A program made the position numbers and the translations under genes. The notes beneath the pieces were generated by a model. That model saw only the letters and a program-made list of their open reading frames with translations. It made no database searches and was not told the DNA's origin. Shown here piece by piece: positions 8,789-36,584 of a DNA stretch of 64,000 bases. Positions within the stretch are counted from its first letter, which is position 1; the number at the start of each line of letters is the position of its first letter. The DNA is from Amaricoccus solimangrovi (GTDB lineage: Bacteria > Pseudomonadota > Alphaproteobacteria > Rhodobacterales > Rhodobacteraceae): the NCBI RefSeq assembly GCF_006385685.1, contig NZ_VFRP01000012.1:1-64000 (forward strand), given 5' to 3'.

Positions 8789-8877
8789 CCGTCGCCCTCC
8801 CTTCGATATGCCTCCCTTCCCGGATAGGCCAGCGCGCCCGGGAACGGAAGGCGGGGCGGGGGACAAGTCGTCGCGGC

Positions 8878-20735: not shown

Positions 20736-20751
20736 TGGCACGGTTGTTGCT
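20736..20751 (+). promoter_or_regulatory. sigma54 promoter of alcohol dehydrogenase gene
   Basis: TGGCACGGTTGTTGCT matches the -24/-12 consensus TGGCACG-N4-TTGCW exactly. The expected start at about 20763 leaves a 31-base leader before the ATG at 20794, which includes a GGGAGGAG ribosome binding site. Sigma54 promoters need an enhancer-binding activator; the MimR-like protein encoded at 33994-36048 is the nearest candidate. Confidence 0.88.
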
Positions 20752-21908: not shown

Positions 21909-22178
21909 ATGCGCGGCATGGTCGCGAAAGCCGGACCCGGGCCGTTCCGCCGGGTCAGCCGGTCGCTCCGGATCGGGGGGCATGCGACGAGCCTGCAGCT
22001 CGAGGCGGCGTTCTGGGACGTGCTCGACGCGATGGCGGAACGGGAGGGGCTGACGACGCCGAAGCTGCTCGCGGCGCTGCACGCGGAGACGGCGGAGCAT
22101 CAGGGCGACGTCGCGAATTTCGCCTCGGCGCTCCGGACGATCTGCCTGCTCTACCATCGGGGCGCCGCGCCGGAATGA
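21909..22178 (+). CDS. ribbon-helix-helix domain protein
   Basis: An 89-residue protein whose middle (SRSLRIGGHATSLQLEAAFW, then LDAMAEREGLTTPKLLAALH) is a typical RHH_4 ribbon-helix-helix domain, a small dimeric DNA-binding fold common in alphaproteobacteria. The target is unknown. The ATG at 21909 has GGAAGCGGAG upstream; GTG codons at 21891 and 21894 are alternatives. It follows the alcohol dehydrogenase by 62 bases on the same strand and ends inside a strong hairpin, so it may be the last gene of the sigma54 transcript. There is no toxin-like partner gene. Confidence 0.75.
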   Translation: MRGMVAKAGPGPFRRVSRSLRIGGHATSLQLEAAFWDVLDAMAEREGLTTPKLLAALHAETAEHQGDVANFASALRTICLLYHRGAAPE

Positions 22179-22195: not shown

Positions 22196-22393
22196 TCAGT
22201 GCGGCTTCGGCTGGCCGATCCGGCCCTCGGCGATCCAGCGCGCGGCGAGAACCAGCGCGCCCATCGCGAAATCGCGGCCATGGGCGGTCACCATCTCCTG
22301 CGAGATCTCGCCGAGCCGGGTGAAGAACAGGTCCTTGCTCTGTTCCTCGGGGGTGAGCGTGGCGGCCGGGGCCTCGGTCTCGGGGGTGGTCAT
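22196..22393 (-). CDS. small conserved-looking protein, function unknown
   Basis: A 65-residue soluble protein with an Ala/Thr/Pro/Glu-rich N-terminus, then SKDLFFTRLGEISQEMVTAH and DFAMGALVLAARWIAEG, which predict two helices. Its ATG at 22393 has a GGAGATCC site and starts 12 bases after the stop of the WD40-like gene, so the two are co-transcribed. The coding bias matches its neighbours. I do not recognise the family. Its place beside the monooxygenase region makes an accessory role possible but unproven. Confidence 0.6.
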   Translation of the reverse strand: MTTPETEAPAATLTPEEQSKDLFFTRLGEISQEMVTAHGRDFAMGALVLAARWIAEGRIGQPKPH

Positions 22394-22405: not shown

Positions 22406-23485
22406 TTACTTGAACATGCGGGCGGGAAAGGTGGCGATCGCGGCGACGCCGGCGGCGTCGCCGATCGCGAGATGCCGGCCGTCGGGCGAGAAGGCGAGCG
22501 CGGTGACCGCCGCGCCCTCGTGGCGGAGCAGAAGCTCGTCGCGGGCGCCGATCTGGGCGATCACGACCTGGCCATTGGCGAAACCCGCCGCGAGGAGCGG
22601 CCGGGACGGATGCGCCGCCAGCGCCTCGACGGCGACGAGGCCGGGCTGTCCCGTCAGGAGCGGCCGGTCGGTCGCGGGCAGCGCCTCGGCGTCCCAGGCG
22701 GCGACGCGGAAGGCGCCCGGGGCGGCGAAGGCGTGGCCGGGCGCGCTCCAGACGAGGTCGCGCGCCGGGGCCGGGAAGCCGCCGAGGCGGATCGGGGCCG
22801 CGGGGGCGGCCGGGTCGACGAGCGCGATCCCCTCCGCGCCGAGCGCCGCGCCGAGCCAGGCGCCGTCGCCGCGCCAGCGCAGCCGGAGCGCGCCGGCGAG
22901 GGGCACGGCCGGGGAGGCGTCGTCGCGCCCGAGAAGGCGCACCGCGCCCGCGTCGGCGGCGGCGAGCCCGCCGCCCGCGTGGAGCGCGAGCGCCACCGTC
23001 CCGGGCAGGTCCCGGCGCCGCGCGCCGTCGCGGTTCAGCAGCGTGACGCCGCCCGCGTCGGCGGCGGCGACCGCGCCGCCCGCCTGGTCGAGCGCGACGA
23101 CCGGCCCTTCGAGCGTCAGCACCGTCGTGGCGGCGCCGTCGGGGCCGAGCTCGAGTACGCGGCCCGCCGCGTCGCCGACGAGAAACCCGCTCCCGCGCGC
23201 GGCGATCGGCGGCGCGCCATCGGCGAGGCCGGTGACGGGGACGAGCGCCGGCGGCTCCTTCGTCCGGGGCCGGATCGTGGTCTGGCCGAGGTCGCCGGTC
23301 ACGCGGATCCGGCTCTCCGGCGGTTCGGGGTCGGCGGCTCCCGCGATCAGCACCGCGCCCGCGGCCGTCGCGAAGGCGGTGGCGCCGCCATCGGTCGCGA
23401 AGCGGATCGCGGTGATCGGGGCCTCGGTCCGCCAGCGGCGGGCGAGCAGGTCGTGGAGCGTGAGCGGGCGGTCAGGCTGGTTCAT
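22406..23485 (-). CDS. WD40-like beta-propeller protein
   Basis: A 359-residue protein made of repeated segments of about 40 residues with the WD40-type pattern of small hydrophobic strands and Asp/Gly turns. Examples are AAITAIRF-like strands at the N-terminus, VAALTAHPSRPLLAAG-like strands in the middle, and the clear C-terminal repeat VTALAFSPDGRHLAIGDAAG. There is no signal peptide. Such propellers are scaffolds for protein complexes. The ATG at 23485 (MNQPDRPLTLHDLLARRW) is chosen because upstream codons fall in the divergent promoter. It pairs with the 65-aa gene. The real partner is unknown. Confidence 0.7.
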   Translation of the reverse strand: MNQPDRPLTLHDLLARRWRTEAPITAIRFATDGGATAFATAAGAVLIAGAADPEPPESRIRVTGDLGQTTIRPRTKEPPALVPVTGLADGAPPIAARGSGFLVGDAAGRVLELGPDGAATTVLTLEGPVVALDQAGGAVAAADAGGVTLLNRDGARRRDLPGTVALALHAGGGLAAADAGAVRLLGRDDASPAVPLAGALRLRWRGDGAWLGAALGAEGIALVDPAAPAAPIRLGGFPAPARDLVWSAPGHAFAAPGAFRVAAWDAEALPATDRPLLTGQPGLVAVEALAAHPSRPLLAAGFANGQVVIAQIGARDELLLRHEGAAVTALAFSPDGRHLAIGDAAGVAAIATFPARMFK

Positions 23486-23577
23486 GGGGCGTTCCTTCCC
23501 GCGCGGCGGGCATGCCCCCCGCGACGTGTCTTTTTCCGGTGCCAAGCAAGGACCGGGCCAATGAAGGAGAGGATGCG

Positions 23578-23829
23578 ATGTTCGAGAACGCGGGCCGGGT
23601 GATCTTCACCACGCTCCACGAGGTGGCGCTGGCGAAGCTGGGCGCGGGGCACGCCTGCGTGAGCGCGCTCGCGCGCGCCGCGGCCGAGCCGGAGGCCGCC
23701 GCGGTCGCCGAGGCGGAGACCGCGCTCCGCGCGCTGCCCGAGGCGGAGCGGACGGCGATCATGGGCGCGGCCCATGCGCGGCTGCGAAGCGACCCCGCCG
23801 CCTGGCTCGCCCTCTGGCCCGCCCCGTAG
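23578..23829 (+). CDS. small protein, function unknown
   Basis: An 83-residue Ala/Glu-rich, mainly helical protein (MFENAGRVIFTTLHEVALAK at the start, then EAERTAIMGAAHARLRSDP). GGAGAGG lies seven bases before the ATG at 23578. It diverges from the WD40-like gene across 92 bases and is followed at once by a large palindromic repeat that includes its stop codon. I do not recognise the family; its codon bias is like that of its neighbours. The alternative is a chance frame, since GC-rich DNA has many. Confidence 0.45.
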   Translation: MFENAGRVIFTTLHEVALAKLGAGHACVSALARAAAEPEAAAVAEAETALRALPEAERTAIMGAAHARLRSDPAAWLALWPAP

Positions 23830-23920
23830 GGCGGACATCTGTCCGCCTTCGCGCCCGGGATGGCGGACCGTTCCGCGATGGCGGGATGAGCCCGGGATGG
23901 CGGACAGATGTCCGCCCTAC
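23826..23920. repeat. pair of REP-like palindromes in inverted orientation
   Basis: Two copies of a 22-base unit, 23826-23847 and 23899-23920, are exact reverse complements. Each contains its own near-perfect hairpin (GGCGGACA, two bases, TGTCCGCC) and starts or ends with GTAGGG. A related imperfect stretch (ATGGCGGACCGTTCCGCGAT) lies between them. The structure sits between the convergent 83-aa and 144-aa genes. Related GTAGGG palindromes occur at 26531-26554 and 33975-33997. Confidence 0.75.
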
Positions 23921-24351
23921 GGCGCCCGGTAGCCTTCGAGCTGGTCGGGCAGGGCATCCGCCTGCGCGCGGAACTGGCGCTCGGCGGTCTCGATATGGCC
24001 GCGCAGGTCGTCCCAGATGTCGACGCTCAGCACGGAGGTCGTGTCGCCGAGCAGCCGCTCGATCTCGCCGAGGCGCAGCTGATGTGTCATCGCGACGCCC
24101 GAGAGGACGAAGTCGCGCAGGAGCAGCGCGTGCGTCTCGATGAAGCCCCGGATCATCGGATGGCTCTCCGCCGTCACGCCGCGCCCGGCGAGTTCGCGCG
24201 CGATGACCTCCTCGAAATGCGCGCGCAGCCGGTGCTGGCTCTCCCCGAGGAAGCGCAGGGTGTAGACGGCGTCGCGCGGCATCAGCCGGGCAAGCTCGGC
24301 GGCGACCTCCTCGGGCGCCCGGGGGCGGCTGGGATCCTGCGACTCGGCCAC
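23917..24351 (-). CDS. all-helical protein of unknown function, divergent from monooxygenase operon
   Basis: A 144-residue soluble protein predicted to be a helical bundle (RDAVYTLRFLGESQHRLRAH, GFIETHALLLRDFVLSGVAM). GTG at 24351 is favoured because GGGAGG lies exactly six bases upstream. The ATG at 24357 would abut that Shine-Dalgarno sequence with no spacing. It is transcribed away from the monooxygenase operon, and the shared spacer contains several palindromes. I do not recognise it; it could be an accessory protein or a small regulator. The stop codon lies in a palindromic repeat. Confidence 0.6.
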   Translation of the reverse strand: MAESQDPSRPRAPEEVAAELARLMPRDAVYTLRFLGESQHRLRAHFEEVIARELAGRGVTAESHPMIRGFIETHALLLRDFVLSGVAMTHQLRLGEIERLLGDTTSVLSVDIWDDLRGHIETAERQFRAQADALPDQLEGYRAP

Positions 24352-24407
24352 GGTCATCCTCCCGCTGGACTGACGATCACATAGGCCGCGCATTACTCCC
24401 CGTCTAC

Positions 24408-24443: not shown

Positions 24444-24493
24444 TGTCATCGGCGCGACAAGTGTAAATTACAGGTGTAACGCCTCGTTACACC
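24444..24493. promoter_or_regulatory. cluster of inverted repeats, likely activator sites
   Basis: Three further dyads follow: TGTC-N8-GACA (24444-24459); TGTAAATTACA (24462-24472), a perfect odd palindrome; and GGTGTAAC-N5-GTTACACC (24473-24493), a perfect 8-bp inverted repeat. The last is centred about 108 bp upstream of the expected sigma54 start, within the usual range for enhancer-binding activators. The local AT content is higher than in flanking DNA. Confidence 0.6.
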
Positions 24494-24564: not shown

Positions 24565-24580
24565 TGGCACGCAACTTGCA
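24565..24580 (+). promoter_or_regulatory. sigma54 promoter of the monooxygenase operon
   Basis: TGGCACGCAACTTGCA is a perfect -24/-12 element (TGGCAC-N5-TTGCA). The expected transcription start is about 24592. A sigma54 activator is encoded at the other end of the cluster (33994-36048), and upstream dyads offer binding sites. Confidence 0.92.
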
Positions 24581-24591
24581 TCGCAGCTGGC

Positions 24592-24852
24592 AGAAGAAGC
24601 CCACCGGGTGCTCGCCCGGTGCCACAAGAACGAAGGGGAGGCCGCCGGCCCGAGGATCGCGAGAGACCGCCGAGGCGTGGTCCGGATCCGAATGCCCGCC
24701 ACCGACACCTTTGCCGGATCCACCGAACGGCCGGTCCCCGGGGTCATCCGATCCGAGGCCCGCCGTTCGACAGAAGAACTGGCGGCGCATGGCGCCGCGA
24801 CCGGCCCGGGCGATGGGGCCCGAGGGCGCAACAGGGTGGAGGCTTTCAGACG
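24592..24852 (+). other. long 5' leader of the monooxygenase operon
   Basis: About 260 bases separate the predicted transcription start from the first ATG. A hairpin (CACCGGG, six bases, CCCGGTG; 24602-24621) lies near the start and another (GCGGCGC, ATG, GCGCCGC; 24782-24798) further on. One frame stays open across the leader and its TGA (24854-24856) overlaps the hydroxylase ATG; an internal ATG at 24692 would give a 54-codon peptide. No good ribosome binding site supports that ATG. Confidence 0.4.
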
Positions 24853-26523
24853 ATGACGTCCTTGACGCTCAACAAGATCACCGCGCAGCGGGGCATTCCC
24901 GTCGGCGAGGCGACGAAACGGATTTCCGACCTCGGGTGGCAACCCACCTATGTGCAGGAAGCGAATACCTTCCCGACCGACTACAAGATCTCCAGGGCGC
25001 CGCGCGACCCGATGAAGCAGGTGCTGCGCTCCTACTTCCCGATGCAGGAGGAGAAGGACAACCGCGTCTACGGCGCGCTCGACGCCGCGCTCCGGGGCGA
25101 CATGTTCCGCAACGTGGAGCCGCGCTGGGTCGAGTGGATGAAGCTCTTCCTCGCGATCATCCCCTTCCCGGAAATCTCGGCTGCGCGCTCGATGGCGATG
25201 GTCGCCCGCCTCGCGCCGGGCGAGGATCTGCGGACCGGGTTCACGATGCAGATGGTGGACGAGTTCCGCCATTCGACCATCCAGATGAACCTCAAGAAAT
25301 GGTACATGGAGAACTACATCGACCCGGCCGGGTTCGACATCACCGAGGAAGCCTTCGGCAAGTGCTACGCCACCACGATCGGCCGACAGTTCGGCGAGGG
25401 TTTCATCACCGGCGACACGATGACCGCCGCCTGCATGTACCTCACCGTGGTCGCGGAGACCGCCTTCACCAACACGCTCTTCGTCGCCATGCCGTCGGAG
25501 GCCGCCCGTAACGGCGACTACGCGCTCCCGACGGTGTTCCTCTCGGTGCAGTCCGACGAGAGCCGGCACATCGGCAACGGCCATTCGATGCTGATGGCGG
25601 CGCTGAAGGAGCCGGAGAACCACCTGCTGCTCGAGCGCGACCTGCGCTACGCCTTCTGGCAGAACCACGCGATCGTCGACGCCGCGATCGGCACCTTCAT
25701 CGAATACGGCACCACCAACCGCGACAAGAACAAGGAATCCTACGCGGAGATGTGGCACCGCTGGATCTTCGAGGACTACTACCGCACCTACATGCTGCCG
25801 CTCGAGAAATACGGCGTGAAGGTGCACCACGACGACGTGCACGAGGCCTGGAACCGGATCACCAAGAAGCACTACGTCCACAAGGTCGCGCAGTTCTTCG
25901 CGGTCGGCTGGCCGGTGAACTTCTGGCGGATCGAGGCGCAGCGCGACGCCGACTTCGAATGGTTCGAGTCGAAGTATCCGGGCTGGTACGCCGAGTTCGG
26001 CGATTTCTGGAAATGGTACGACAAGCTCTCGAAGAAGGGCCAGAAGGTCATCACCTTCGCGGGCGAGGAGACGGGCTACGTCTATCCGCACCGCTGCTGG
26101 TCCTGCCTCGTGCCCTGCCTGATCCGCGAGGACATGGTGGTGGACGAGATCGACGGCCAGCTTCACACCTTCGCGCATGAACTCGACCGCTGGACGGCGG
26201 TGGAAGCCTTCGCCGAGGAATACCAGGGCCGGCCGACGCCCGCCATGGGCCGCTTCTCCGGCAAGCGCGAGTGGGAGACGCTCTACCACGGCTGGGATCT
26301 GGCCGACGCGATCAGGGACCTGAACTTCGTCCGCTCCGACGGCAGGACGCTGGTCCCGCAGCCGCATCTGCGCTTCGACGACAAGGAGATGTGGACGCTC
26401 GACGACGTGAAGGGCAACACGCTGCTCTCCCCGCTCACGCTGCTGCGCGAGATGACCCCCGAGGCGCGGGAGGCGCATATCGCGGAGTACAAGGCGGGCT
26501 TCACGATCAAGCCCTGCCACTGA
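24853..26523 (+). CDS. mimA: soluble diiron monooxygenase, hydroxylase large subunit (MimA/PrmA type)
   Basis: This 556-residue alpha subunit holds the diiron centre that activates oxygen and hydroxylates short alkanes, acetone or phenols. The ligands are Glu107, Glu137, His140, Glu202, Glu236 and His239 (DEFRHS and SDESRH). The spacings (30, 3, 62, 34, 3) equal those of methane monooxygenase MmoX. Long stretches such as RSYFPMQEEKDNRVYGALDA and TIGRQFGEGFITGD are characteristic of the propane monooxygenase group. Near the C-terminus CWSC (Cys415, Cys418) is kept, but the second Cys pair I recall from PrmA is replaced by AHELD. The ATG at 24853 follows GGAGG at 10 bases. First gene of the sigma54 operon. 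Confidence 0.95.
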   Translation: MTSLTLNKITAQRGIPVGEATKRISDLGWQPTYVQEANTFPTDYKISRAPRDPMKQVLRSYFPMQEEKDNRVYGALDAALRGDMFRNVEPRWVEWMKLFLAIIPFPEISAARSMAMVARLAPGEDLRTGFTMQMVDEFRHSTIQMNLKKWYMENYIDPAGFDITEEAFGKCYATTIGRQFGEGFITGDTMTAACMYLTVVAETAFTNTLFVAMPSEAARNGDYALPTVFLSVQSDESRHIGNGHSMLMAALKEPENHLLLERDLRYAFWQNHAIVDAAIGTFIEYGTTNRDKNKESYAEMWHRWIFEDYYRTYMLPLEKYGVKVHHDDVHEAWNRITKKHYVHKVAQFFAVGWPVNFWRIEAQRDADFEWFESKYPGWYAEFGDFWKWYDKLSKKGQKVITFAGEETGYVYPHRCWSCLVPCLIREDMVVDEIDGQLHTFAHELDRWTAVEAFAEEYQGRPTPAMGRFSGKREWETLYHGWDLADAIRDLNFVRSDGRTLVPQPHLRFDDKEMWTLDDVKGNTLLSPLTLLREMTPEAREAHIAEYKAGFTIKPCH

Positions 26524-26530
26524 GCCAGGC

Positions 26531-26554
26531 GGGTGGGCGGATCGCCCACCCTAC
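26531..26554. repeat. REP-like palindrome between mimA and mimB
   Basis: GGGTGGGCG, GAT, CGCCCACCC is a perfect 9-bp hairpin ending in TAC; read in reverse it begins GTAGGGTGGGCGATC. It lies eight bases after the hydroxylase stop, and a degenerate partner (GGGTGGGTGATTGACCCGCCC) follows at about 26568-26588. It could stabilise the upstream mRNA end or lower reductase expression. Confidence 0.6.
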
Positions 26555-26653
26555 CCGCAACCCGCGGGGTGGGTGATTGACCCGCCCCCGTCAGCCAACC
26601 CTCCCCGCGCCCCGGGGAGGGACCGGGGAAGAAGTGGAAGCGAGGCAAACGGA

Positions 26654-27730
26654 ATGACCCATACGGTCCGCCTGGAACCGGTCGGCGTCGAATTCGAGGT
26701 CGAGGACGGTGAAACGGTCCTGAACGCCGCCTTCCGGCAAGGCATCGCCCTGCCGCATGGCTGCAAGGAGGGACAGTGCTCGGCCTGCAAATGCGTGTTG
26801 AACGAGGGCGAGGTCGATCTGCTCAAGTACTCGACCTTCGCGCTCAACGACATGGAGCGCGAGAGCGGGCACATCCTGCTCTGCCGGGCGATCGCCTATT
26901 CGGACATGGAGGTGGAGCTCCTCAACTACGACGAGGAGGTCCTGTCGAAATCCATCGCGGTGAAGACCTTCGAGGGTCGCATCACCGAGATCGGAAAGCT
27001 GACCCATGACATCCGGGGCATCGCCATCGCGCTCAACGCGCCGATCAAGTTCTGGGCCGGGCAATATGTCGACATCACCGTCACCACCGAGGAAGGGCAG
27101 ACGATTACGCGCTCGTTTTCCATGGCAAATACGCCGGAGCAAGCCGAAACCCTGCGCTTCATCATCAAGAAGTACCCCGAAGGAAGATTCTCCTCCGAGC
27201 TCGACTCGGGAGGGATCCGCGTCGGCGCCGAGGTCTCCGTCACCGGACCCTACGGCACCTGCTTCCGCCGCGAGGACCGCGAAGGACCCATGATCCTCGT
27301 CGGGGCGGGCTCCGGCCTCTCGCCGATCTGGTCGATCCTGCACGACCATGTGGCGAGCGGCGAGGACCGCGAGGTCTTCTTCTTCTACGGCGCCCGGACG
27401 CGCGACGACCTGTTCTACCTCGACCGGATCGCCGCGCTGACGGAGGCCAACCCCTCGGTCCATTTCATCCCCGTGCTCAGCCACGCGGAGGAGGATGCCG
27501 GGTGGGAGGGGGCGCGGGGCTTCGTCCACGAGCGGGTCGCCGACAAGCTCAGGGAACTCGACATCGACGGCGCGGGCGACGTCTACGCCTGCGGGCCGCC
27601 GCCGATGATCGACGCGCTCGAACCCGTGCTCTTCATGGCGGGCTTCGAGAGCGAACGCATCCACTTCGACCGTTTCACCACTTCGTCGAGCGCGACCCCG
27701 GGCCAGCTCGAGCCGGCCCGGTCCCACTGA
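26654..27730 (+). CDS. mimB: monooxygenase reductase component (2Fe-2S, FAD)
   Basis: A 358-residue NADH-dependent reductase that passes electrons to the hydroxylase. The N-terminal plant-type [2Fe-2S] domain uses Cys37, Cys42, Cys45 and Cys77 (GCKEGQCSACKC, LLCRA). The FAD domain carries RSFSMANTPE, and the NAD domain carries GAGSGLSPIWS and CGPPPMIDALEP. The layout and length match MmoC/PrmB-type reductases. The ATG at 26654 lies 130 bases after the hydroxylase gene, and the gap contains a REP-like hairpin. The order large subunit, reductase, small subunit, coupling protein is that of mimABCD/prmABCD. Confidence 0.94.
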   Translation: MTHTVRLEPVGVEFEVEDGETVLNAAFRQGIALPHGCKEGQCSACKCVLNEGEVDLLKYSTFALNDMERESGHILLCRAIAYSDMEVELLNYDEEVLSKSIAVKTFEGRITEIGKLTHDIRGIAIALNAPIKFWAGQYVDITVTTEEGQTITRSFSMANTPEQAETLRFIIKKYPEGRFSSELDSGGIRVGAEVSVTGPYGTCFRREDREGPMILVGAGSGLSPIWSILHDHVASGEDREVFFFYGARTRDDLFYLDRIAALTEANPSVHFIPVLSHAEEDAGWEGARGFVHERVADKLRELDIDGAGDVYACGPPPMIDALEPVLFMAGFESERIHFDRFTTSSSATPGQLEPARSH

Positions 27731-27760
27731 ACGAAACACGAGATCAAGGAGCGAAACGTC

Positions 27761-28816
27761 ATGCCAGCCATTTCCAGCTCGGTTGGATCGGGCGCCGCGG
27801 GCGCTGCCATCTTCGCGGACAGCGACAGCCGCAAGTACCGCTACTTCCAGCCGCGCGGCCAGCGCGCGACCCATTACGAGGACGTGACCGTCGACGTCCA
27901 GCCGGATCCGGAACGCTACCTGATCCAGAACTGGATCATCGAATTCGCCGACGGCAACGGCGCCTACATGAAGGACTACACCCGCGCGCTGTCGTCGAAC
28001 TGGCACGCCTTCCGCGCCCCGGACCAGGAGTGGGAGCGCACCCATTACCAGCGCCAGTCCCGCATCGAGACCATGGTGCAGTCGGTCATCGCCAACGCGC
28101 GCAAGTCCGGCGCGCCGCGCGCCTTCGACCGCGTGTGGCAGAAGGTCCTGATGAACCATCTCGGCGCGTGGAAACACGCCGAATTCGGCCTCGGCACCTC
28201 GCTCATGCAGGCGCAGCGCTACGGCTACACCCAGATGATCAACAACGCGACGCTGACCAACAGCTCCTACAAGCTCAGGCTCGCGCAGGACATCACCCTC
28301 TATCTCGCCGAGATCGGCATGGAGATCGAGGGCTGGGACGACGGCGCCGGCAAGGAGCACTGGCTCAACGATCCGATCTGGCAGGGCACCCGCGAGGCGA
28401 TCGAGACGATCATGGGGACCTCCGACTATCTGGAGCAGTACTTCGCGATCAACCTCGTCTTCGAGCCGCTGGTGGGCGAGCTCTTCCGCTCCGGCTTCCT
28501 GATGCGGGTGGCCGCGGCCAACAACGACTTCGTGACGCCGCCCGTGATCTCCGCCGCCGAGGCCGATTACGAGCGCAACCTCGCGAATGCGATCGACCTC
28601 ATGTACCTGCTCGTGAACGACGAGAAGCATGCCGAGCACAACCGCTCGCTCTTCAAGGCCTGGCTCACGATCCACCGCCCGCTCGCGGAGAAGGCGGCCC
28701 GCGGGCTCCAGCCGATCTGGTCGGAGCCGCATTCCAAACCCGTCTCGTTCGAGGACGTGCGGGCGCAGTCCGAGGAGCGCATCACGCAGATCCTCGGCGA
28801 ACTCGGCCTCAACTAA
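27761..28816 (+). CDS. mimC: soluble diiron monooxygenase, hydroxylase small subunit
   Basis: The 351-residue beta subunit of the hydroxylase, structurally a ferritin-like helical bundle that scaffolds the alpha subunit and lacks iron. Typical segments are RYFQPRGQRATHYEDVTVDV near the start, QNWIIEFADGNGAYMKDYTR, and the C-terminal YLLVNDEKHAEHNRSLF. Full length for the family. The ATG at 27761 is preceded by AAGGAGCG. It is 30 bases after the reductase gene and 11 before the coupling protein gene, so it belongs to the same transcript. Confidence 0.94.
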   Translation: MPAISSSVGSGAAGAAIFADSDSRKYRYFQPRGQRATHYEDVTVDVQPDPERYLIQNWIIEFADGNGAYMKDYTRALSSNWHAFRAPDQEWERTHYQRQSRIETMVQSVIANARKSGAPRAFDRVWQKVLMNHLGAWKHAEFGLGTSLMQAQRYGYTQMINNATLTNSSYKLRLAQDITLYLAEIGMEIEGWDDGAGKEHWLNDPIWQGTREAIETIMGTSDYLEQYFAINLVFEPLVGELFRSGFLMRVAAANNDFVTPPVISAAEADYERNLANAIDLMYLLVNDEKHAEHNRSLFKAWLTIHRPLAEKAARGLQPIWSEPHSKPVSFEDVRAQSEERITQILGELGLN

Positions 28817-28827
28817 GGGAGACGGAC

Positions 28828-29205
28828 ATGTCGACAGAGACGGCCAAGCGGGACTCCGCCAAGCACGACACGATCTTCAAGTCGATGAAGGACATCACCT
28901 TCGAGCAGACGATCTCCGACCAGTGCGGGGTCACCATGAACGACTCGGTCGAGGCGCGCGCCATCGCCGAGTTCATGGGCTCGAAGGAGGGCGTGATCGT
29001 CACCTACCAGCCGGCGATGATCCGGATCGACGGCCATGACAAGCTGATCTTCAAGATGGACGAGATCAGCGACTATCTCGGCCGCGAGATGACGGCGGAG
29101 ATCTTCGAGGTGAACACCTCGACCCACTACGGCCGCATGGTCCGGGTCGACGACAACACCGTCATCCTCTTCGGCAACATGGACGAGGTGATGGAATACA
29201 TCTGA
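28828..29205 (+). CDS. mimD: monooxygenase coupling (effector) protein
   Basis: This 125-residue MmoB/DmpM-type regulatory protein has no cofactor; it binds the hydroxylase and tunes oxygen reactivity. The core DSVEARAIAEFMGSKEGVIV and the segment MTAEIFEVNTSTHYGRMVRV fit the family. An N-terminal tail of about 25 residues precedes it. The ATG at 28828 has AGGGAGACG upstream. It ends the four-gene monooxygenase core; 94 bases with an imperfect GC-rich hairpin precede the next gene. Confidence 0.93.
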   Translation: MSTETAKRDSAKHDTIFKSMKDITFEQTISDQCGVTMNDSVEARAIAEFMGSKEGVIVTYQPAMIRIDGHDKLIFKMDEISDYLGREMTAEIFEVNTSTHYGRMVRVDDNTVILFGNMDEVMEYI

Positions 29206-29299
29206 CCTCGGTCAAGGACGGGCGGCGGGAAGGGCGCAGTCTCTCCCCGCCGTCGAGGGAACGCGCCAGCGATTCCCGCGGCCAGAATCGGAGGGAAGA

Positions 29300-30373
29300 A
29301 TGGCCAGGATGAAAGCCGCCGTTTTCGTCGAGAAGAACCGGATCGTGCTCGAGGACAAGCCGATCCCGGACGTGGGGCCGATGGACGCGCTGATCCGCGT
29401 CACCACGACGACGATCTGCGGCACCGACGTGCATATCCTGAAGGGCGAGTATCCGGTCGAGAAGGGCCTGACCATCGGCCACGAACCTGTGGGCGTGATC
29501 GAGAAGCTCGGCTCCGCGGTGACCGGGTTCAGCGAGGGCCAGCGGGTGATCGCCGGCGCCATCACCCCCTCGGGCTGGTCGAACGCCTGCCTCTGCGGCT
29601 TCTGCAGCCAGGACGGCGCGGGCACGAGACACGGCTGGAAGCCGATCGGCGGCTGGAAGTTCGGCAACACGATCGACGGCTGCCAGGCGGAATACGTGCT
29701 GGTCCCGGACGCGATGGCGAATCTCGCCCCCGTCCCCGACGGGCTGACCGACGAGCAGGTGCTGATGTGCCCCGACATCATGTCGACGGGCTTCGCGGGC
29801 GCGGAGAACGGCGGAATCCGGATCGGCGACACGGTGGCGGTCTTCGCGCAAGGGCCGATCGGGCTCTGCGCCACGGCGGGGGCGAAGCTCCTCGGCGCGA
29901 CGCGGATCATCACGGTGGACGCGGTCGCCGCGCGGATGGAGGTCTCGCGCAGGCTCGGCGCCGACGAGGTGGTGAACTTCCGGGAGGTGAACCCGGTCGA
30001 GGCGATCATGGACCTGACCGACGGCCGCGGCGTCGATGTCTCGATCGAGGCGCTCGGCACCCAGGCCACCTTCGAGGCGGCGCTCCGGATCCTGCGCCCG
30101 GGCGGCACGCTGTCGAGCCTCGGCGTCTATTCGACGGACCTCAGGATCCCGCTCGACGCCTTCTCGGCCGGGCTCGGCGACAACGCGATCAAGACCGCGC
30201 TCTGCCCGGGCGGCAAGGAGCGGATGCGGCGGATGATGGAGGTGATCTCCTCGGGCCGCGTCGACCTGAAGCCGCTCGTCACCCACCACTACAAGCTCGA
30301 TGACATCGAGGCGGCCTACGACCTCTTCTCGCACCAGCGCGACGGGGTGCTGAAGGTCGCGATCACGACATAA
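29300..30373 (+). CDS. zinc-dependent secondary-alcohol (isopropanol-type) dehydrogenase
   Basis: A 357-residue medium-chain dehydrogenase. Cys40 (TICGTDVH) and His61-Glu62 (IGHEP) are catalytic zinc ligands, and VAVFAQGPIGLCATAGAKLL is the nucleotide-binding motif. Segments such as RVIAGAITPSGWSNA, GWKFGNTIDGCQAEYVLV, CPDIMSTGFAGAE and TALCPGGKERMRRMMEV match the isopropanol dehydrogenases of Clostridium and Thermoanaerobacter. In this cluster it would interconvert 2-propanol and acetone. It is the fifth gene of the operon, with GGAGGGAAG before the ATG. Confidence 0.88.
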   Translation: MARMKAAVFVEKNRIVLEDKPIPDVGPMDALIRVTTTTICGTDVHILKGEYPVEKGLTIGHEPVGVIEKLGSAVTGFSEGQRVIAGAITPSGWSNACLCGFCSQDGAGTRHGWKPIGGWKFGNTIDGCQAEYVLVPDAMANLAPVPDGLTDEQVLMCPDIMSTGFAGAENGGIRIGDTVAVFAQGPIGLCATAGAKLLGATRIITVDAVAARMEVSRRLGADEVVNFREVNPVEAIMDLTDGRGVDVSIEALGTQATFEAALRILRPGGTLSSLGVYSTDLRIPLDAFSAGLGDNAIKTALCPGGKERMRRMMEVISSGRVDLKPLVTHHYKLDDIEAAYDLFSHQRDGVLKVAITT

Positions 30374-30406
30374 CGGACAAGCCAACCCGGGACTGGGAGG
30401 AAAGCC

Positions 30407-31429
30407 ATGTACATCACTCCGGAAGGCAAGGAAATCTTCGTCGTCGACGGGCACATCCACTTCTGGGATGGCAGCCCGGAGAACCAGCGCAACATCCACG
30501 GCAAGCAGTTCATCGAATGCTTCTACGCCTATCACAACGCCCTCTCGCCCGCGGAGCAGCGCTGGGAGAAGTCGCATTTCGAGAAGTATTCCGCCGATGA
30601 CGTCTACCGCGATCTCTTCATCGACGGCCCCGACGACATGGCGATCATCCAGACCACGGTGCTGGGCGATTTCTACAAGACCGGGTTCGGCTGCATCAAG
30701 CGCAGCCACGAGATGGCCGCCCGCGCGAAGGACCGGTTCATCATCAACGGCTCCTACGACCCGCGCGATGGCGAGCAGGCGCTCGAATACATCCACTTCA
30801 TGAAGGAGACCTACGACATCAAGGGCGTGAAGCTCTACACCGCCGAATGGAAGGGCGAGAGCAAGGGCTGGAAGCTCAACGACCCCTGGGCGTACAAGTG
30901 CTTCGAACTGCTCGACAAGCTCGGGATCCGGAACGTCCACATCCACAAGGGGCCGACGATCATCCCGCTCAACAAGGACGCCTTCGACGTCCACGACGTC
31001 GACTACTGCGCCACCGACTTCCAGAACCTCAACTTCATCGTCGAGCATTGCGGCCAGCCGAGGCTCGACGATTTCTGCTGGATCGCGGTGCAGGAGACGA
31101 ACGTCTACGGCGGGCTCGCCGTGGTGCTGCCCTTCATCCACTCGCGGCCGCGCTATTTCGGCGAGATGATCGCGGAACTGCTGTTCTGGGTCGGGCCGGA
31201 CAAGCTGCTCTTCTCCTCCGACTACGCGATCTGGACGCCGAAATGGCTGGTCGAGAAGTTCTGGGCCTACCAGATCCCCGAGGACATCGCCGCCGAGCGG
31301 GGCGTGCAGCTGACCGACGAGATCAAGGAGAAGATCCTCGGGCTGAACGCCGCGAAGCTCTACGACATCGATATCGAGGACCGGAAGGCGAAGCTGCGCG
31401 CCGATCCGGTCAGGATCGCGGCGGAGTGA
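30407..31429 (+). CDS. amidohydrolase-family metal-dependent hydrolase/decarboxylase
   Basis: A 340-residue TIM-barrel protein of the Amidohydro_2 (ACMSD-like) family. Metal-binding residues are His16 and His18 (VDGHIHFWDG), a His in NVHIHKGP and EHCG, and the Asp in LLFSSDYAIW. It is always near mim/prm-type monooxygenases in the clusters I know, but its substrate there is not settled. A hydrolytic or decarboxylating step, or a role in hydroxylase maturation, is possible. Good GGAGG site before the ATG; 33 bases after the dehydrogenase gene. Confidence 0.85.
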   Translation: MYITPEGKEIFVVDGHIHFWDGSPENQRNIHGKQFIECFYAYHNALSPAEQRWEKSHFEKYSADDVYRDLFIDGPDDMAIIQTTVLGDFYKTGFGCIKRSHEMAARAKDRFIINGSYDPRDGEQALEYIHFMKETYDIKGVKLYTAEWKGESKGWKLNDPWAYKCFELLDKLGIRNVHIHKGPTIIPLNKDAFDVHDVDYCATDFQNLNFIVEHCGQPRLDDFCWIAVQETNVYGGLAVVLPFIHSRPRYFGEMIAELLFWVGPDKLLFSSDYAIWTPKWLVEKFWAYQIPEDIAAERGVQLTDEIKEKILGLNAAKLYDIDIEDRKAKLRADPVRIAAE

Positions 31430-31434
31430 ACCCG

Positions 31435-32211
31435 ATGCATGGCATGTGCGCGGAACGCGAGGCCGAGGTCTGGCAGGCGCTGGACCGGGTCACCGATCCC
31501 GAACTCGACGAGGCCGTCACCGAGATGGGCTTCGTCGAGAACGTCGAGATCGAGGGTCCCTCGGTCCTGGTGAGCTTCCGGCTCCCCACCTACTGGTGCT
31601 CGCCGAACTTCGCCTTCCTGATGTGCGAGGGCATCGTGCGGGAGGTCGGCCGGCTCCCCTGGGTCGCGCGCGCCCGCGTGCGGCTCGAGGACCACATGCA
31701 TGCCGAGGAGGTGATGGCCGTCGTCAATGACGGCCGTCCCTTCTCGGAAGCCTTCGCCGGTCTCTGCGACGGCGACGATCTCGACGCGCTCCGCGAGAAA
31801 TTCGCGGAGAAGGCGTTCCAGCGGCGGCAGGAGGCGGTGCTGCTCCGCCTCCGCGCGCTCGGCCATTCGCCCGAGGCGATCGCCGCGATGACGCTGCGCG
31901 AACTCGAATTCACCGAGGTCGAGGAGGACAGGCTCGCGCGCTACCGCGAGGCGCTGACGGGCAGGGGCCTTGCCAAATGGCCCGGCGATCTCGCCTTCCG
32001 CGACTGGGCGGGCGTGGCGCTGACGGCCGAGGGGCTGCCCGCGCATCTCGCGACACTGAGGCAGGTCCGTCTCAACATGGAGTTCAACGGCACGCTCTGC
32101 CAGGGCCTGCGCGGGGCGCGCTACAAGGAGGCCGTCGAGGTCGACGGCGAGCCGACCCTGGTCGATTTCATCCTCGGCCGGGTTCCGCCCCGGCCGCAGG
32201 CGGCCCGGTAA
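31435..32211 (+). CDS. DUF59/MIP18-type iron-sulfur assembly-like protein of the cluster
   Basis: A 258-residue protein. The first 100 residues are a DUF59 (PaaD/SufT-like) domain: EVWQALDRVTDPELDEAVTE, then VSFRLPTYWCSPNFAFLMCE with two Cys. The remaining 150 residues are a helical extension found with monooxygenase clusters and not in ordinary DUF59 proteins. It may help metallate the hydroxylase or reductase. The ATG at 31435 has GGAG eight bases upstream; a GTG at 31426 would overlap the previous stop as GTGA and is the alternative start. It sits just before the dedicated GroEL. Confidence 0.82.
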   Translation: MHGMCAEREAEVWQALDRVTDPELDEAVTEMGFVENVEIEGPSVLVSFRLPTYWCSPNFAFLMCEGIVREVGRLPWVARARVRLEDHMHAEEVMAVVNDGRPFSEAFAGLCDGDDLDALREKFAEKAFQRRQEAVLLRLRALGHSPEAIAAMTLRELEFTEVEEDRLARYREALTGRGLAKWPGDLAFRDWAGVALTAEGLPAHLATLRQVRLNMEFNGTLCQGLRGARYKEAVEVDGEPTLVDFILGRVPPRPQAAR

Positions 32212-32277
32212 TTTCCGGGCCACCCAGATGACTATCCAAGGACATAATCGCCGGTTCGACCGGCGGCGGGAGGGAAT

Positions 32278-33906
32278 ATGCCCAAGCTCATGATCCACAA
32301 TTCCGACGCGCGGCGCGCGCTCGCCCGCGGCGTCTCGCAACTCGCCGCCGCCGTCGAGCCCACGCTCGGGCCGAAGGGCATGAACGCGATGATCGACCGG
32401 CCCCTCGGCACGCCGATGGTGACGCGCGACGGCGTCTCGATCGCCTCCGAGATCGAACTCTTCGACCGGTTCGAGAACATGGGCGCCCAGGTGGTGCGCG
32501 AGGTCTCGATGCAGACGAACGAGGTCGCGGGCGACGGGACCACCACGGCGATCGTGCTCGCGAACGCGCTGGTGCAGAAGGGCGTCGAGGCGAGCGAGCG
32601 GGGGGCCAAGACCGTCGATCTCTGCCGGGGCATCGATCTCGCCGTCGACCGCGTGGTGGAGGCGCTGCGGGCCTCCGCCAAGCCCGCGCGGAACGGCGCG
32701 CTCGCCGCCGTCGCGACCATCGCCGCGACCGAGCCGAAACTCGGCGCGCTGGTCGCGGAGGCCTTCGAGCGGGTCGGCGCCGACGGGGTGATCACCACCG
32801 ATTTCAGCGTGACGACCGACACGCTGCTCGACGTGGTGGAAGGCATGTCCTTCGACCGCGGCTATCTCTCGCATCACATGGTCACCGACCAGGAGCGGAT
32901 GGAGGCGGTGCTGGAGCGCCCGCTCATCCTGATGACCGACCTCAAGATCAAGGATCCCGCCGCGCTCGACGGCGTGCGCGCCCTCGCCGACGCGGAGGGG
33001 CGCCCGCTTCTCGTCATCGCCGAGGAAGTCTCGCCCGAGGTGGTGGTGACGCTGCTCGGCAAGGAGGGAACGGGGCGCTATCTCGTCGTCCACGCGCCGG
33101 AATACGGCCACTGGCGCAAGGCGCTGATGGAGGATCTCGCCATCGTCACCGGCGGCCGGGTGATCGCGCGCGACCTCGGCGGCCGGATCGAGGCCGCGAC
33201 GCGCGAGGATCTCGGCGGCGCCGAGCGGGTGCGCGCGAGCGCCGGCCATACCTCGGTGCTGCGGGGCGAGGGCGCGGCCGCGGCGATCACCGCCCGCCGC
33301 GCCCAGGTGCAGCGCCAGCACGACGCCGCCCCGCCCAACATCGAGCAGGACAAGCTCCGCGAGCGGCTGGCGAAGCTCTCCGGCGGCACGGCGGTGCTCT
33401 ACGCCGGCGGCGTGACGCCGGTGGAGCAGAAGCGCACGATCCAGCTCATCGAGGATTCGCTCTCCGCCGTCCGCGCCGCGGTCGAGGAGGGCGTGGTCGC
33501 GGGCGGCGGCGTCGCGCTCGCCCAGATCCGGCCGGTGGTCGACAAGGCCATAGCCGAGGTCTCGGGCGACGTGGCCGAGGGGGCCAAACTGGTGCGCGAG
33601 GTGCTGACCCGGCCGCTCTGGCGGATCGTGCGCAACTCGGGCGGCGACGCCGAGGAGGTGGTCGCGAAGGTCTCCGCCGTCAACGGCGGCTTCGGCTACA
33701 ACGCCGCCCAGGGCGACTACGGCAACATGTACGAGGCCGGGATCATCGACCCGGTCCGCGTCACCTGCGCCGCGCTCCAGAACGCCGCCTCGGTGGCGAA
33801 GCTCATCCTCACCACCGAGACGCTGGTGGGCGACCTGCACGAGGACGAGGATCCGACCGCCGGCCCCGCGCTGGGCGGCGGCGCGGAGAAGCTCGGCCGG
33901 CCCTGA
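32278..33906 (+). CDS. mimG: dedicated GroEL-like chaperonin (MimG type)
   Basis: A 542-residue group I chaperonin subunit. ATP-site residues are conserved (GPKGMNAMIDRPLG, Asp86 in AGDGTTT, Asp in IEDSLSAVRAAVEEG, VVAGGGVAL). It lacks the C-terminal GGM repeats of housekeeping GroEL and ends in GGGAEKLGRP. No groES lies beside it, so it would have to borrow the housekeeping GroES. In mycobacteria the equivalent MimG is needed to fold the hydroxylase large subunit, and the same role is inferred here. Last gene of the operon, followed by a strong terminator. Confidence 0.92.
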   Translation: MPKLMIHNSDARRALARGVSQLAAAVEPTLGPKGMNAMIDRPLGTPMVTRDGVSIASEIELFDRFENMGAQVVREVSMQTNEVAGDGTTTAIVLANALVQKGVEASERGAKTVDLCRGIDLAVDRVVEALRASAKPARNGALAAVATIAATEPKLGALVAEAFERVGADGVITTDFSVTTDTLLDVVEGMSFDRGYLSHHMVTDQERMEAVLERPLILMTDLKIKDPAALDGVRALADAEGRPLLVIAEEVSPEVVVTLLGKEGTGRYLVVHAPEYGHWRKALMEDLAIVTGGRVIARDLGGRIEAATREDLGGAERVRASAGHTSVLRGEGAAAAITARRAQVQRQHDAAPPNIEQDKLRERLAKLSGGTAVLYAGGVTPVEQKRTIQLIEDSLSAVRAAVEEGVVAGGGVALAQIRPVVDKAIAEVSGDVAEGAKLVREVLTRPLWRIVRNSGGDAEEVVAKVSAVNGGFGYNAAQGDYGNMYEAGIIDPVRVTCAALQNAASVAKLILTTETLVGDLHEDEDPTAGPALGGGAEKLGRP

Positions 33907-33933
33907 CCGCCGGCCGGGGGGACTTCCCCGCCT

Positions 33934-33962
33934 GCCGCGATCCTCCGGGATCGCGGCCTTTT
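33934..33962 (+). terminator. intrinsic terminator of the monooxygenase operon
   Basis: A 10-bp stem (GCCGCGATCC with GGATCGCGGC, loop TCCG) is followed by CTTTT. It lies 28 bases after the chaperonin stop and before the convergent regulator gene, whose 3' end carries a REP-like palindrome. Confidence 0.85.
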
Positions 33963-33974
33963 GTGAAGGGAAAG

Positions 33975-33997
33975 GGGCGGACCGAGGTCCGCCCTAC
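33975..33997. repeat. REP-like palindrome at the 3' end of the regulator gene
   Basis: GGGCGGACC, GA, GGTCCGCCC is a perfect 9-bp hairpin followed by TAC; in reverse it begins GTAGGGCGGACC, like the pair at 23826-23920. It overlaps the TAG stop of the sigma54 activator gene. Confidence 0.7.
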
Positions 33998-36048
33998 TGG
34001 AAGGTTCGGCGGATGCCGTGGTGGTCGAGCTTGCGGTAGAGCGTCGGGCGCGAGATGCCGAGCCGCCGCGCCACCCGGGTCAGGTTGCCCTGCTCGGCCT
34101 CGAGCGCGTCGCGGAGCGCGGCGAGTTCCGCCTCCGCGAAGCTGCTCGCCGTCGCGTGGGCGGCGCGCTCGGCGGGCCGGACACACGCCGCCTCGCCACC
34201 GTCGGGCGCGCCCTCCGGGGCGGCCCCGGGGTTCAGGATCTCGCGCGGCAGTTCGGCGGGCGTCACCCGCGGGGTCCGCGCGAGAAGGTGCAGCCGCTCC
34301 ACGAGGTTGCGGAGCTCGCGCACATTGCCCGGCCAGCGATAGGCGGCGAGCAGGTCGAGCACTTCCGCCGAGAAGACCAGCGGATCGCGGCCGGAGCGGT
34401 CGGCGATCAGCCCGTTGAAATGCTCGAGCAGCAGCATCGCGTCCCGGCCACGCTCGCGCAGCGGCGGCACCCGGACCGAGACCGCGCCGATCCGGTAGTA
34501 GAGATCGCGCCGGAAGCGTCCGGCCTCCACCTCGGCGCGCAGGTCGCGGTTCGTGGAGGCGATCAGCCGCACGTCGACCGGCCTCGGCTTGCTGTCGCCG
34601 ATCCGCTGCACGGCGCGATCCTCGAGCACGCGCAGCAGGAAGGGCTGGATGTCGAGCGGCAGTTCCCCGATCTCGTCGAGGGTCAGCGCGCCGCCGTGGG
34701 CGAGTTCGAAGACGCCCGGCTTGCCCTCGCGCGCCGCCCCGGTGAAGGCGCCCGCGACATGGCCGAAGAGCTCGCTTCCGATCAGTTCCCGGGTGATGCC
34801 GCCGCAGTTGATCGCGATGTAGCGCCCCGCCGGCCGCGACGCGCCGACGAGACGCGCGAAGAGTTCCTTGCCGACGCCGGTCTCGCCCTCGATCAGCAGC
34901 GAACTCACCTCGTCGCCCCGGGCGACGCGGCAGGCGATGTCGATCACCTCGCGCAGCGCCGGGCTCTCGCCCAGGATCGCCGCGGCCGCCTCCTCCACCG
35001 GATCCCCGCCCTTCGCCTTGCGCGGCCGCGCCGGCGCGGGCAGCACCAGCGCCGCGCCCCTGAGCGCGCCGTCGAGCCGGAGCGGCGTCAGGTGGCAGCC
35101 GCTCATGTCGGGCGGCAGCGCGCGGGTGAGGTCGTCGAGGAAGCCCGCGGCCTTGCCCGTCGCCGGCCCCAGCGTCGGCCCGCCGCGCAGCGGGAAGCGC
35201 CCGGAAACCTCGCAGGGAATGTTCGCGCAATGGACCGGCCGCGCCCGGCGGTCGAGGATCATCAGCCCGTCGCCCCGGCGGTAGTTGGGCGCGGAGGCGA
35301 TGAAGGCCTCGAGCAGGCGCGAGCGTTCCTCGCTCTGCTGCTCGGCCAGCGCCTTCTCGATCTCGCGCGCCGCGGCGGCGACGAGCACGGTATTGTGCGG
35401 GCGGAAGATGCCGGGATGGCCGGAGAGATCGACCACGCCGAGCACCCGCCCGTCGAGCGGGTCGCGGATCGGCGCGCCGGCGCAGGTCCAGCCCTTGATC
35501 CCGGCGCAGAAATGCTCGGCGGCGTGCACGAAGACCGGCTCGCCCGCGAAGAGCGCGGTGCCGATCCCGTTGGTACCCGCCGCCTCCTCGGTCCATTTGC
35601 CGCCGATGCCGAGATGGATGTCCATGCCGGCGTTCAGCGTGCGCTGGTCGCCGATCGCATCGATCAGCACCCCCTCGTGGTCGGCGAGGACCAGCATCGC
35701 GCCGGTGCCCTCGAGCAGGCTGCCGATGCTCGCGAAGGAGCGGCGGGCGGCGGCGAGCAGGTCGGCGCTGGCGCGGCCGATCTCCTCGACCGTGTCGGCC
35801 TCGGCCATCATCGGCGCCTCGGCCCGGCTCGCGTCGATGCCCCCCTCGGCGCAGCGCGCCCAGGAATCACCGATCAGCGCGCGGACCTGGCAGGAGGTGG
35901 CGCAGCCCGCCGCGCCGGAGAGCAGCTGCTCCCAGGCGCCCATCGTCGCCCGCTCGTCGTAATCGGCGATGCGCGACGCGCCCCCGCAGGCCGGGGTCGG
36001 GGGGCGCCGGCCTGCCGCGTTGGGGACTGGGTTCGACTTGTGGCTCAT
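33994..36048 (-). CDS. sigma54-dependent activator, AcoR/MimR type
   Basis: A 684-residue enhancer-binding protein. The N-terminal GAF-type sensor region (about 100-240; ADHEGVLIDAIGD, GTNGIGTALFAGEPV) should bind the inducer. The AAA+ domain (about 355-590) has Walker A GETGVGKE (388-395), the sigma54-contacting GAFTGA (433-438) and Walker B ALTLDEIGE (454-462). A Fis-type helix-turn-helix is at 654-678 (NLTRVARRLGISRPTLYRKL). There is no receiver domain, so it is ligand- rather than kinase-controlled. By position it should activate the sigma54 promoter at 24565 and perhaps the one at 20736. It lies convergent to the operon, 60 bases after the 158-aa gene. Confidence 0.92.
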   Translation of the reverse strand: MSHKSNPVPNAAGRRPPTPACGGASRIADYDERATMGAWEQLLSGAAGCATSCQVRALIGDSWARCAEGGIDASRAEAPMMAEADTVEEIGRASADLLAAARRSFASIGSLLEGTGAMLVLADHEGVLIDAIGDQRTLNAGMDIHLGIGGKWTEEAAGTNGIGTALFAGEPVFVHAAEHFCAGIKGWTCAGAPIRDPLDGRVLGVVDLSGHPGIFRPHNTVLVAAAAREIEKALAEQQSEERSRLLEAFIASAPNYRRGDGLMILDRRARPVHCANIPCEVSGRFPLRGGPTLGPATGKAAGFLDDLTRALPPDMSGCHLTPLRLDGALRGAALVLPAPARPRKAKGGDPVEEAAAAILGESPALREVIDIACRVARGDEVSSLLIEGETGVGKELFARLVGASRPAGRYIAINCGGITRELIGSELFGHVAGAFTGAAREGKPGVFELAHGGALTLDEIGELPLDIQPFLLRVLEDRAVQRIGDSKPRPVDVRLIASTNRDLRAEVEAGRFRRDLYYRIGAVSVRVPPLRERGRDAMLLLEHFNGLIADRSGRDPLVFSAEVLDLLAAYRWPGNVRELRNLVERLHLLARTPRVTPAELPREILNPGAAPEGAPDGGEAACVRPAERAAHATASSFAEAELAALRDALEAEQGNLTRVARRLGISRPTLYRKLDHHGIRRTFQ

Positions 36049-36107
36049 GAAACGTGCGTTCGATCTTTCCGGTGCTTCGGGCCTCCAGGTCAGTCGAATG
36101 GGCGAAG

Positions 36108-36584
36108 TCAGAGACGAAGCCGCGCGCCGATCGCCTCGGTCAGGCCGCGTTCGGCCTCCGGACCCTCGAGCGCCTGGCCGTCGAGATCGGCGATCGCCTC
36201 GGCGATCTCCGGCTCGACCGGCGAGAAGAAGCCGTTCTCCCGCGTCGCGAGGCGGAAGCTGGTGATCCCGTCGCGCCGCCTTATGTCGCCGAGATGATGC
36301 ATCTGCCGGCCGGTATCGAGGTCGACGAGGCTGACGCGGCCGTTGACGGCGATCCGGACGAAGGGGCGCGGGGGCTCGCTTCGCGCGGTGGCGCGCGCGG
36401 TATGGATGATGAGGCCCTCGGGCTCCGGCCCCGTCTTCGCCGGCGCGTTCCGGCGCGCCGACCAGGCGCCGTTGGTCAGATGGTCGGCGAGCTTGTCGAT
36501 CACCGGCCGGTTGGCCTCGATCACCTTGCGCGCGCGCTCGTCCTCCGGCCGCGGTCCGCTCCGTTTCGAAACGATGTCGATCAT
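36108..36584 (-). CDS. 158-aa protein of unknown function upstream of the activator
   Basis: A soluble alpha/beta protein. It begins MIDIVSKRSGPRPEDERARK and has a Lys/Arg-rich first third, a beta-rich middle (RIAVNGRVSLVDLDTGRQMH) and an acidic helical end (EIAEAIADLDGQALEGPEAE). GGAGG lies seven bases before the ATG at 36584. It is followed after 60 bases by the sigma54 activator on the same strand, so the two likely form an operon. No family is recognised. It could modulate the activator or belong to the monooxygenase system. Confidence 0.65.
   Translation of the reverse strand: MIDIVSKRSGPRPEDERARKVIEANRPVIDKLADHLTNGAWSARRNAPAKTGPEPEGLIIHTARATARSEPPRPFVRIAVNGRVSLVDLDTGRQMHHLGDIRRRDGITSFRLATRENGFFSPVEPEIAEAIADLDGQALEGPEAERGLTEAIGARLRL

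Follow-up and report, generated by a model that had tools for sequence, protein, structure and literature searches.

Which enzyme does the diiron monooxygenase locus of Amaricoccus solimangrovi encode, and which of the genes around it belong to the same system? The locus lies in a stretch of 64,000 nucleotides (contig NZ_VFRP01000012.1, positions 1–64,000; hereafter the window). Our analysis of the window and of related loci indicates that it carries a proteobacterial operon for a group-5 soluble diiron monooxygenase (SDIMO) of the propane/acetone type, with a small protein, hp63, and a WD40-repeat protein encoded upstream as probable dedicated accessory factors. We assign this reading a probability of roughly 0.72. 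The cluster itself is of a known kind; for its upstream block, searches of the open-access literature for WD40 proteins together with propane or diiron monooxygenases found no paper among the matches listed.

The operon is read on the forward strand. It starts with prmA (24853–26523) for the hydroxylase large subunit of 556 amino acids, followed by prmB (reductase with 2Fe-2S, FAD and NAD parts, 26654–27730), prmC (hydroxylase small subunit, 27761–28816), prmD (coupling protein, 28828–29205), a gene for a zinc alcohol dehydrogenase (ADH; 29300–30373, the cluster ADH), an amidohydrolase gene (Amidohydro_2, 30407–31429), a gene for a DUF59 protein (FeS_assembly_P) that is extended at its C terminus (31435–32211), and the gene for a dedicated GroEL (32278–33906). 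A GAF-AAA-Fis σ54 activator is encoded convergently on the reverse strand (33994–36048). Between the last two genes, a hairpin search detected terminator-like hairpins on the forward strand (33934–33957) and on the reverse strand (33994–33975), two in all compared with a mean of 0.6 in shuffled sequences. All nine genes are backed by Pfam, in frame and in this order, in agreement with a preliminary description of the locus as a complete cluster of exactly these parts. The same description had proposed an iron site like that of MmoX, and this is borne out: residues 33–521 of PrmA align with MmoX (phmmer E 5e-64, 220 bits), and all six ligands of the E-E-H-E-E-H set are present (E107, E137, H140, E202, E236 and H239). 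Gln144 of PrmA stands at the position of what is presumably Cys151 in MmoX.

Relatives of the cluster were collected by a scan of GTDB species genomes in which 536 loci matched; the best 80 were kept, and all counts out of 80 refer to these. The four genes prmA, prmB, prmC and prmD are present in 80/80 loci, the amidohydrolase and GroEL genes in 79 each, the DUF59 gene in 77, and an activator of at least 45% identity in 62. The genome has three GroEL copies, and that of the cluster shares 44% and 42% identity with the remaining ones, which fits a dedicated chaperonin of the MimG type.

A tree of the large subunit supports its assignment to SDIMO group 5 of the propane/acetone type, and the gene order large–reductase–small–coupling matches the group-5 pattern. 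PrmA of the window pairs with that of Amaricoccus macauensis (support 100/99) inside an alphaproteobacterial clade of 26 rows (100/100), which sits in a proteobacterial clade of 32 rows (96/96), with Caballeronia, Azospirillum and Methylocella among its members. Adding Rhodococcus JS3073, the next branch outward, gives a clade of 33 rows (100/100). ThmA then follows (98/77), and EtnC, group-6 PrmA and TmoA lie further out, the tree program having issued a long-branch warning for the outer rows, ThmA included. The large subunit thus falls in the group-5 clade and not in another diiron family, as the preliminary description had anticipated.

A cluster of this type is ordinary, not rare, in an alphaproteobacterium. 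Alphaproteobacterial names are borne by 79 of the 80 kept relatives, and the remaining one is labelled only "Proteobacteria bacterium"; among these matches the closest PrmA is that of A. macauensis (97% identity), and many alphaproteobacteria follow at 90–94%. Many carriers belong to root-nodule genera. Plasmid-borne prmA was found in 18 records at an identity of at least 70% (two of them partial), and phage records gave only remote toluene-monooxygenase-like matches, in two records. Group-5 clusters have also been described in seep genomes, several of them alphaproteobacterial, in PMC9213486. Rows of Rhizobiales and Rhodobacterales are intermixed in the tree, which suggests that the cluster has been exchanged among alphaproteobacteria.

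The preliminary description had gone further and proposed that the cluster was acquired from or shared with actinobacteria. A recent acquisition of this kind is very improbable, although two observations could be read in its favour: the gene order of Rhodococcus JS3073 is the same, including the ADH between prmD and the amidohydrolase, and the occurrence is patchy (prmA in 3/11 genomes of the genus, 0/14 other genomes of the family in the same sample, 12/390 genomes of the order, and 4/387 of the class at an identity of at least 75%). However, PrmA is nested within the proteobacterial clade and is only 65% identical to the two actinobacterial sequences compared, and patchiness also fits exchange among alphaproteobacteria, or loss. 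Third-position G+C argues in the same direction: the 17 genes measured within the cluster and beside it all have values of 0.89–0.96, and the cluster thus resembles its neighbours. A foreign origin based on low G+C at 24–32 kb was considered as well and is ruled out by this uniformity; the dip in total G+C there therefore reflects protein composition. An ancient transfer between actinobacteria and proteobacteria, in either direction, would be compatible with the tree, whose 42 rows include a single actinobacterial PrmA/MimA-like row and no named MimA or TY-5 PrmA.

The borders of 24565–36584 given in the preliminary description enclose the core of the cluster correctly, but they are too narrow: comparison with annotated plasmid clusters and with all fetched loci shows that the linked block begins near 20.7 kb. 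On the forward strand it contains ADH2 (20794–21846), a second zinc alcohol dehydrogenase that is 88% identical to one beside an Aminobacter cluster, and a ribbon-helix-helix (RHH) protein of the RHH_4 family (21909–22178). On the reverse strand are hp63 (22196–22393), with 65 residues and a predicted helical hairpin, the WD40-repeat protein (22406–23485), and the helical protein hp155 (23917–24357). As scored by tblastn in the 80 kept loci, hp63 and the WD40 gene are present in 79 each, hp155 in 65, a further upstream gene, hp105, in 56, the RHH gene in 24, and ADH2 at an identity of at least 80% in 20. The sole locus with no match to hp63 or the WD40 gene (L066) has just 2.8 kb upstream of prmA; in the other 79, the distance from the end of hp63 to prmA is 2.4–3.6 kb. 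Neither hp63 nor hp155, hp105 or hp322 has a convincing family in Pfam or NCBIfam, and structure models of hp155 and hp63 (mean predicted local distance difference test scores, pLDDT, of 85.8 and 85.5) matched no PDB entry at E 0.001 or better. Purifying selection on hp63 is apparent from ω values of 0–0.23 in 6/6 pairs. A small forward open reading frame lies at 23512–23829, where relatives such as G009 have a small forward gene, hp91; no match to hp91 itself was found in the window. In another relative (L104, from genome G321), a small open reading frame at 9391–9633, between ADH2 and hp105-hp63-prmA, resembles by eye a CDGSH iron-sulfur protein.

The tie between hp63 and prmA was followed in three overlapping samples of 390 genomes of the order, 387 of the class and 397 of the phylum, in which the first pass scored at most 16 candidates per genome and misses are possible. 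The order sample has prmA in 12 genomes and hp63 in 13. All 12 prmA genomes carry hp63, and the 13th (G428; L103, ∼6600–9300) holds a decayed cluster with separate remnants of prmA, rpoN, the WD40 gene and the activator gene beside hp63. In the class sample, strong matches to hp63 occur in two genomes, G000 and G321, which also have prmA close by; a further match, in G122, is weak (21 bits). The phylum sample has six strong matches. Three of these genomes (G832, G850 and G924) had not appeared in the other samples, and in each of them prmA lies close to hp63; G966 has a weak match of 26 bits, with no prmA in the 9 kb read. When the samples are pooled, 17 different genomes have a strong hp63; in 16 of them prmA is at most 3.2 kb away, and one has prmA remnants. 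Among plasmids, hp63 was found in 13 records, 11 of them with prmA at E 1e-20; the two others are from Phyllobacterium zundukense and Rhizobium CB3171. The P. zundukense plasmid (L123, 8876–13905) carries WD40, hp63, RHH, VOC, Tat-signal and GMC genes between ISL3 transposases.

This last arrangement, a WD40-hp63 pair with no prmA between transposases, and the fact that alphaproteobacterial clusters move as blocks would both fit the view that hp63 and the WD40 protein are hitchhikers retained through chance synteny. Such a view is distinctly improbable given that prmA lies close to hp63 in 16 of the 17 genomes, that hp63 is under purifying selection, and that it stays near prmA in at least four different arrangements: divergent from it, in the same direction beyond rpoN, directly upstream of it, and downstream of the GroEL gene. 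The variable position also bears on a second alternative, in which hp63, the WD40 protein and hp155 are regulators that sense substrate or product and modulate the σ54 activator, and not assembly factors. In the window and in many other loci these genes lie divergently beside the control region, and WD40 proteins act as scaffolds, both of which are compatible with such a role. However, hp63 is found downstream of the GroEL gene in Skermanella and on the far side of the rpoN gene in Roseobacter-type loci, no DNA-binding family was found in the three proteins, and a search for a σ54 site serving the divergent genes found none (0/68 for hp155 and 0/73 for WD40). We consider the regulatory alternative unlikely. 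We instead infer that hp63, usually together with the WD40 protein (G321 and Skermanella have hp63 and no WD40 gene in the stretch read), is a dedicated accessory factor. Because the two stay with the enzyme across different promoter layouts, assembly or stability is the first guess for their role, above regulation.

Control by σ54, as proposed in the preliminary description, is supported by a strict -24/-12 motif on the forward strand at 24565–24579, conserved in relatives and located 288 bp before the start of the operon, together with the activator gene and a clear rpoN copy elsewhere in the genome. A second strict site on the same strand (20736–20750) lies 58 bp before ADH2, and these are the only two on either strand of the window; among the 26 ADH2 genes with an identity of 60% or higher, 14 likewise have such a site in front. 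Upstream of prmA, a canonical site is found in 61 of 65 loci with no linked rpoN. A palindrome, TGTAAC-N5-GTTACA (24475–24491), is located 90 bp before the main σ54 site and is likely the binding site of the activator. With at most one mismatch it is present in the 800 bp preceding prmA in 59/90 loci, compared with 8/1675 control windows; the loci in these palindrome and promoter counts include many close relatives and are not independent. In the 56 loci with both elements, the spacing from the palindrome to the -24 element is 89–92 bp in 37, 68–69 bp in 5 and 112–113 bp in 3. These peaks differ by 21–23 bp, or about two helical turns, as would be expected for an activator site. A search of the open-access literature listed no paper clearly about this palindrome. 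A second stretch resembling a σ54 activator is present in the window at 61200–62081, with 27–36% identity to the cluster-linked activators.

Many Rhodobacterales clusters have their own rpoN copy upstream of prmA (25 loci, among L003–L093). In these 25 loci the prmA promoter has CTGC in the -12 element in 8, TGGAAC in the -24 element in 9, a canonical site in 3 and no site in 5, the classes having been set after inspection and with no control for lineage. Promoter-specific RpoN copies are reported in Cereibacter sphaeroides in PMC11999139.

How the parts may work together can be outlined from kinship and gene content. PrmB would take electrons from NADH and hand them to the PrmA-PrmC diiron hydroxylase, with PrmD as the gate. 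The likeliest small substrates to receive oxygen from O2 would be propane, giving 2-propanol and then, via the dehydrogenases, acetone, and acetone itself, giving acetol. The cluster GroEL would fold PrmA. The GAF activator would bind the palindrome, which precedes the -24 element by ∼90 bp, and drive σ54 transcription of the operon, ADH2 would be transcribed from the second σ54 promoter, and hp63, usually with the WD40 protein, would more likely serve assembly or stability than regulation. Propane and acetone are plausible substrates by kinship and literature: PrmA of M. tundrae is 77% identical to that of the window, the Methylocella lineage is tied to growth on propane, 2-propanol and acetone in M. 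silvestris in PMC7660913, and PMC7176365 reports high abundance on acetone for a Mim cluster that includes MimG, Adh1 and an amidohydrolase-like protein. It is possible, if rather doubtful, that the physiological substrate is something else, such as phenols, ethers or plant volatiles, and that use of propane or acetone is incidental. The cluster ADH is present at an identity of at least 75% in only 10/80 loci, and root-nodule genera are among the many carriers, in line with such a substrate; yet the window has two linked alcohol dehydrogenase genes, and the nearest lineage with genetics employs the enzyme for 2-propanol/acetone and propane (PMC7660913). An aquaporin gene lies after or near the GroEL gene in 18/80 loci (e.g. 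L088, L024 and L028), perhaps for acetol or glycerol-like solutes.

Several observations do not fit easily with a propane/acetone-type operon that has hp63 and the WD40 protein as dedicated factors. The palindrome as defined is absent in 31/90 loci, and 11 of the 56 loci with both elements have spacings other than those of the three peaks. Genomes G383 (prmA 79%) and G048 (prmA 75%) have no hp63, and the same is true of 7 of the 18 plasmid records whose prmA reaches 70% identity (four from Azospirillum, two from Methylocella and one partial from Indioceanicola). The core enzyme of Methylocella, Azospirillum, G383 and G048 lacks nearby hp63, WD40, amidohydrolase and DUF59 genes, so none of these four can be a general requirement of the clade's enzymes. 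The amidohydrolase-DUF59 pair, in addition, also occurs with no monooxygenase nearby. At about even odds, hp63, usually with the WD40 propeller and the helical proteins hp105 and hp155, forms an accessory system dedicated to proteobacterial propane/acetone monooxygenases. It would provide a step of assembly, stability or activity control that enzymes of the actinobacterial and Methylocella types bypass or handle differently, and in Rhodobacterales the same clusters would also have gained private σ54 factors with matching promoter changes.

For the amidohydrolase and the DUF59 protein, a function purely in monooxygenase maturation was considered and is weakened by four plasmid loci that have the pair with no monooxygenase in the stretch read, in the thermophile Thermomicrobium, the haloarchaeon Halorarius, Peribacillus and the Rhizobium N324 plasmid (L119, L120, L121 and L122). 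Neighbours of these lone pairs are ADH, σ54 activator or glyoxalase-like genes, the ADH being of the NAD type in Thermomicrobium and Halorarius. Since the pair is absent in the Methylocella/Azospirillum type and stands alone elsewhere, a role in metabolism, or at least a broader one, is more probable than one confined to the monooxygenase.

With this cluster, a widespread and under-studied group of short-chain alkane and ketone oxidizers gains another carrier. Heterologous expression of such enzymes is known to need a special GroEL, MimG, which PMC7176365 names as a maturation factor. If hp63 and the WD40 protein are further helpers, they may explain failed heterologous expression and would be useful parts.

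Compared with known systems, the closest counterparts are the other alphaproteobacterial clusters, among them those of Mesorhizobium, Rhizobium, Aminobacter and Gemmobacter, which have the same operon, PrmA of 89–97% identity, and hp63 and the WD40 gene upstream. They differ from the window in that most lack the cluster ADH and some have an aquaporin gene, GMC genes or an rpoN copy. The propane monooxygenase (PrMO) of Methylocella, placed by PMC7660913 in a distinct group-5 cluster together with organisms not known for alkane growth, is also similar. In M. tundrae subunits A, B, C and D are 77%, 56%, 62% and 68% identical to those of the window, and a GroEL gene and a Fis-type activator gene follow. 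However, its 31-kb stretch contains no amidohydrolase, DUF59, hp63 or WD40 gene, its activator gene runs in the same direction as the operon, and GMC oxidoreductase genes follow. The actinobacterial prmABCD/mimABCD clusters with mimG share the order A, B, C, D, ADH, amidohydrolase, DUF59, GroEL and Fis-type activator (L090, and the downstream set in PMC4428276), and the Rhodococcus JS3073 locus reads A-B-C-D-ADH-amidohydrolase-DUF59-ADH-GroEL, so the equivalence of gene sets proposed in the preliminary description stands. They are set apart by lower identity (65% for A and 43% for GroEL), by a second ADH gene that precedes that of GroEL, and by the lack of hp63, WD40 and hp155 in the two Rhodococcus loci read (L090 and L125). 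With the mim system the window shares a GroEL of the MimG type, whereas the sole NCBIfam match of PrmD, to the MimD model NF045941 (E 7e-33, 113.2 bits), is below the cut-off of 150. MmoX, finally, shares with PrmA the six iron ligands and the residue equivalent to T206, presumably Thr213 in MmoX, but its gene order is different; given this remote kinship (220 bits) and a Pfam search that found no gamma-subunit family among the nine cluster proteins, the enzyme is placed outside the group-3 soluble methane monooxygenases.

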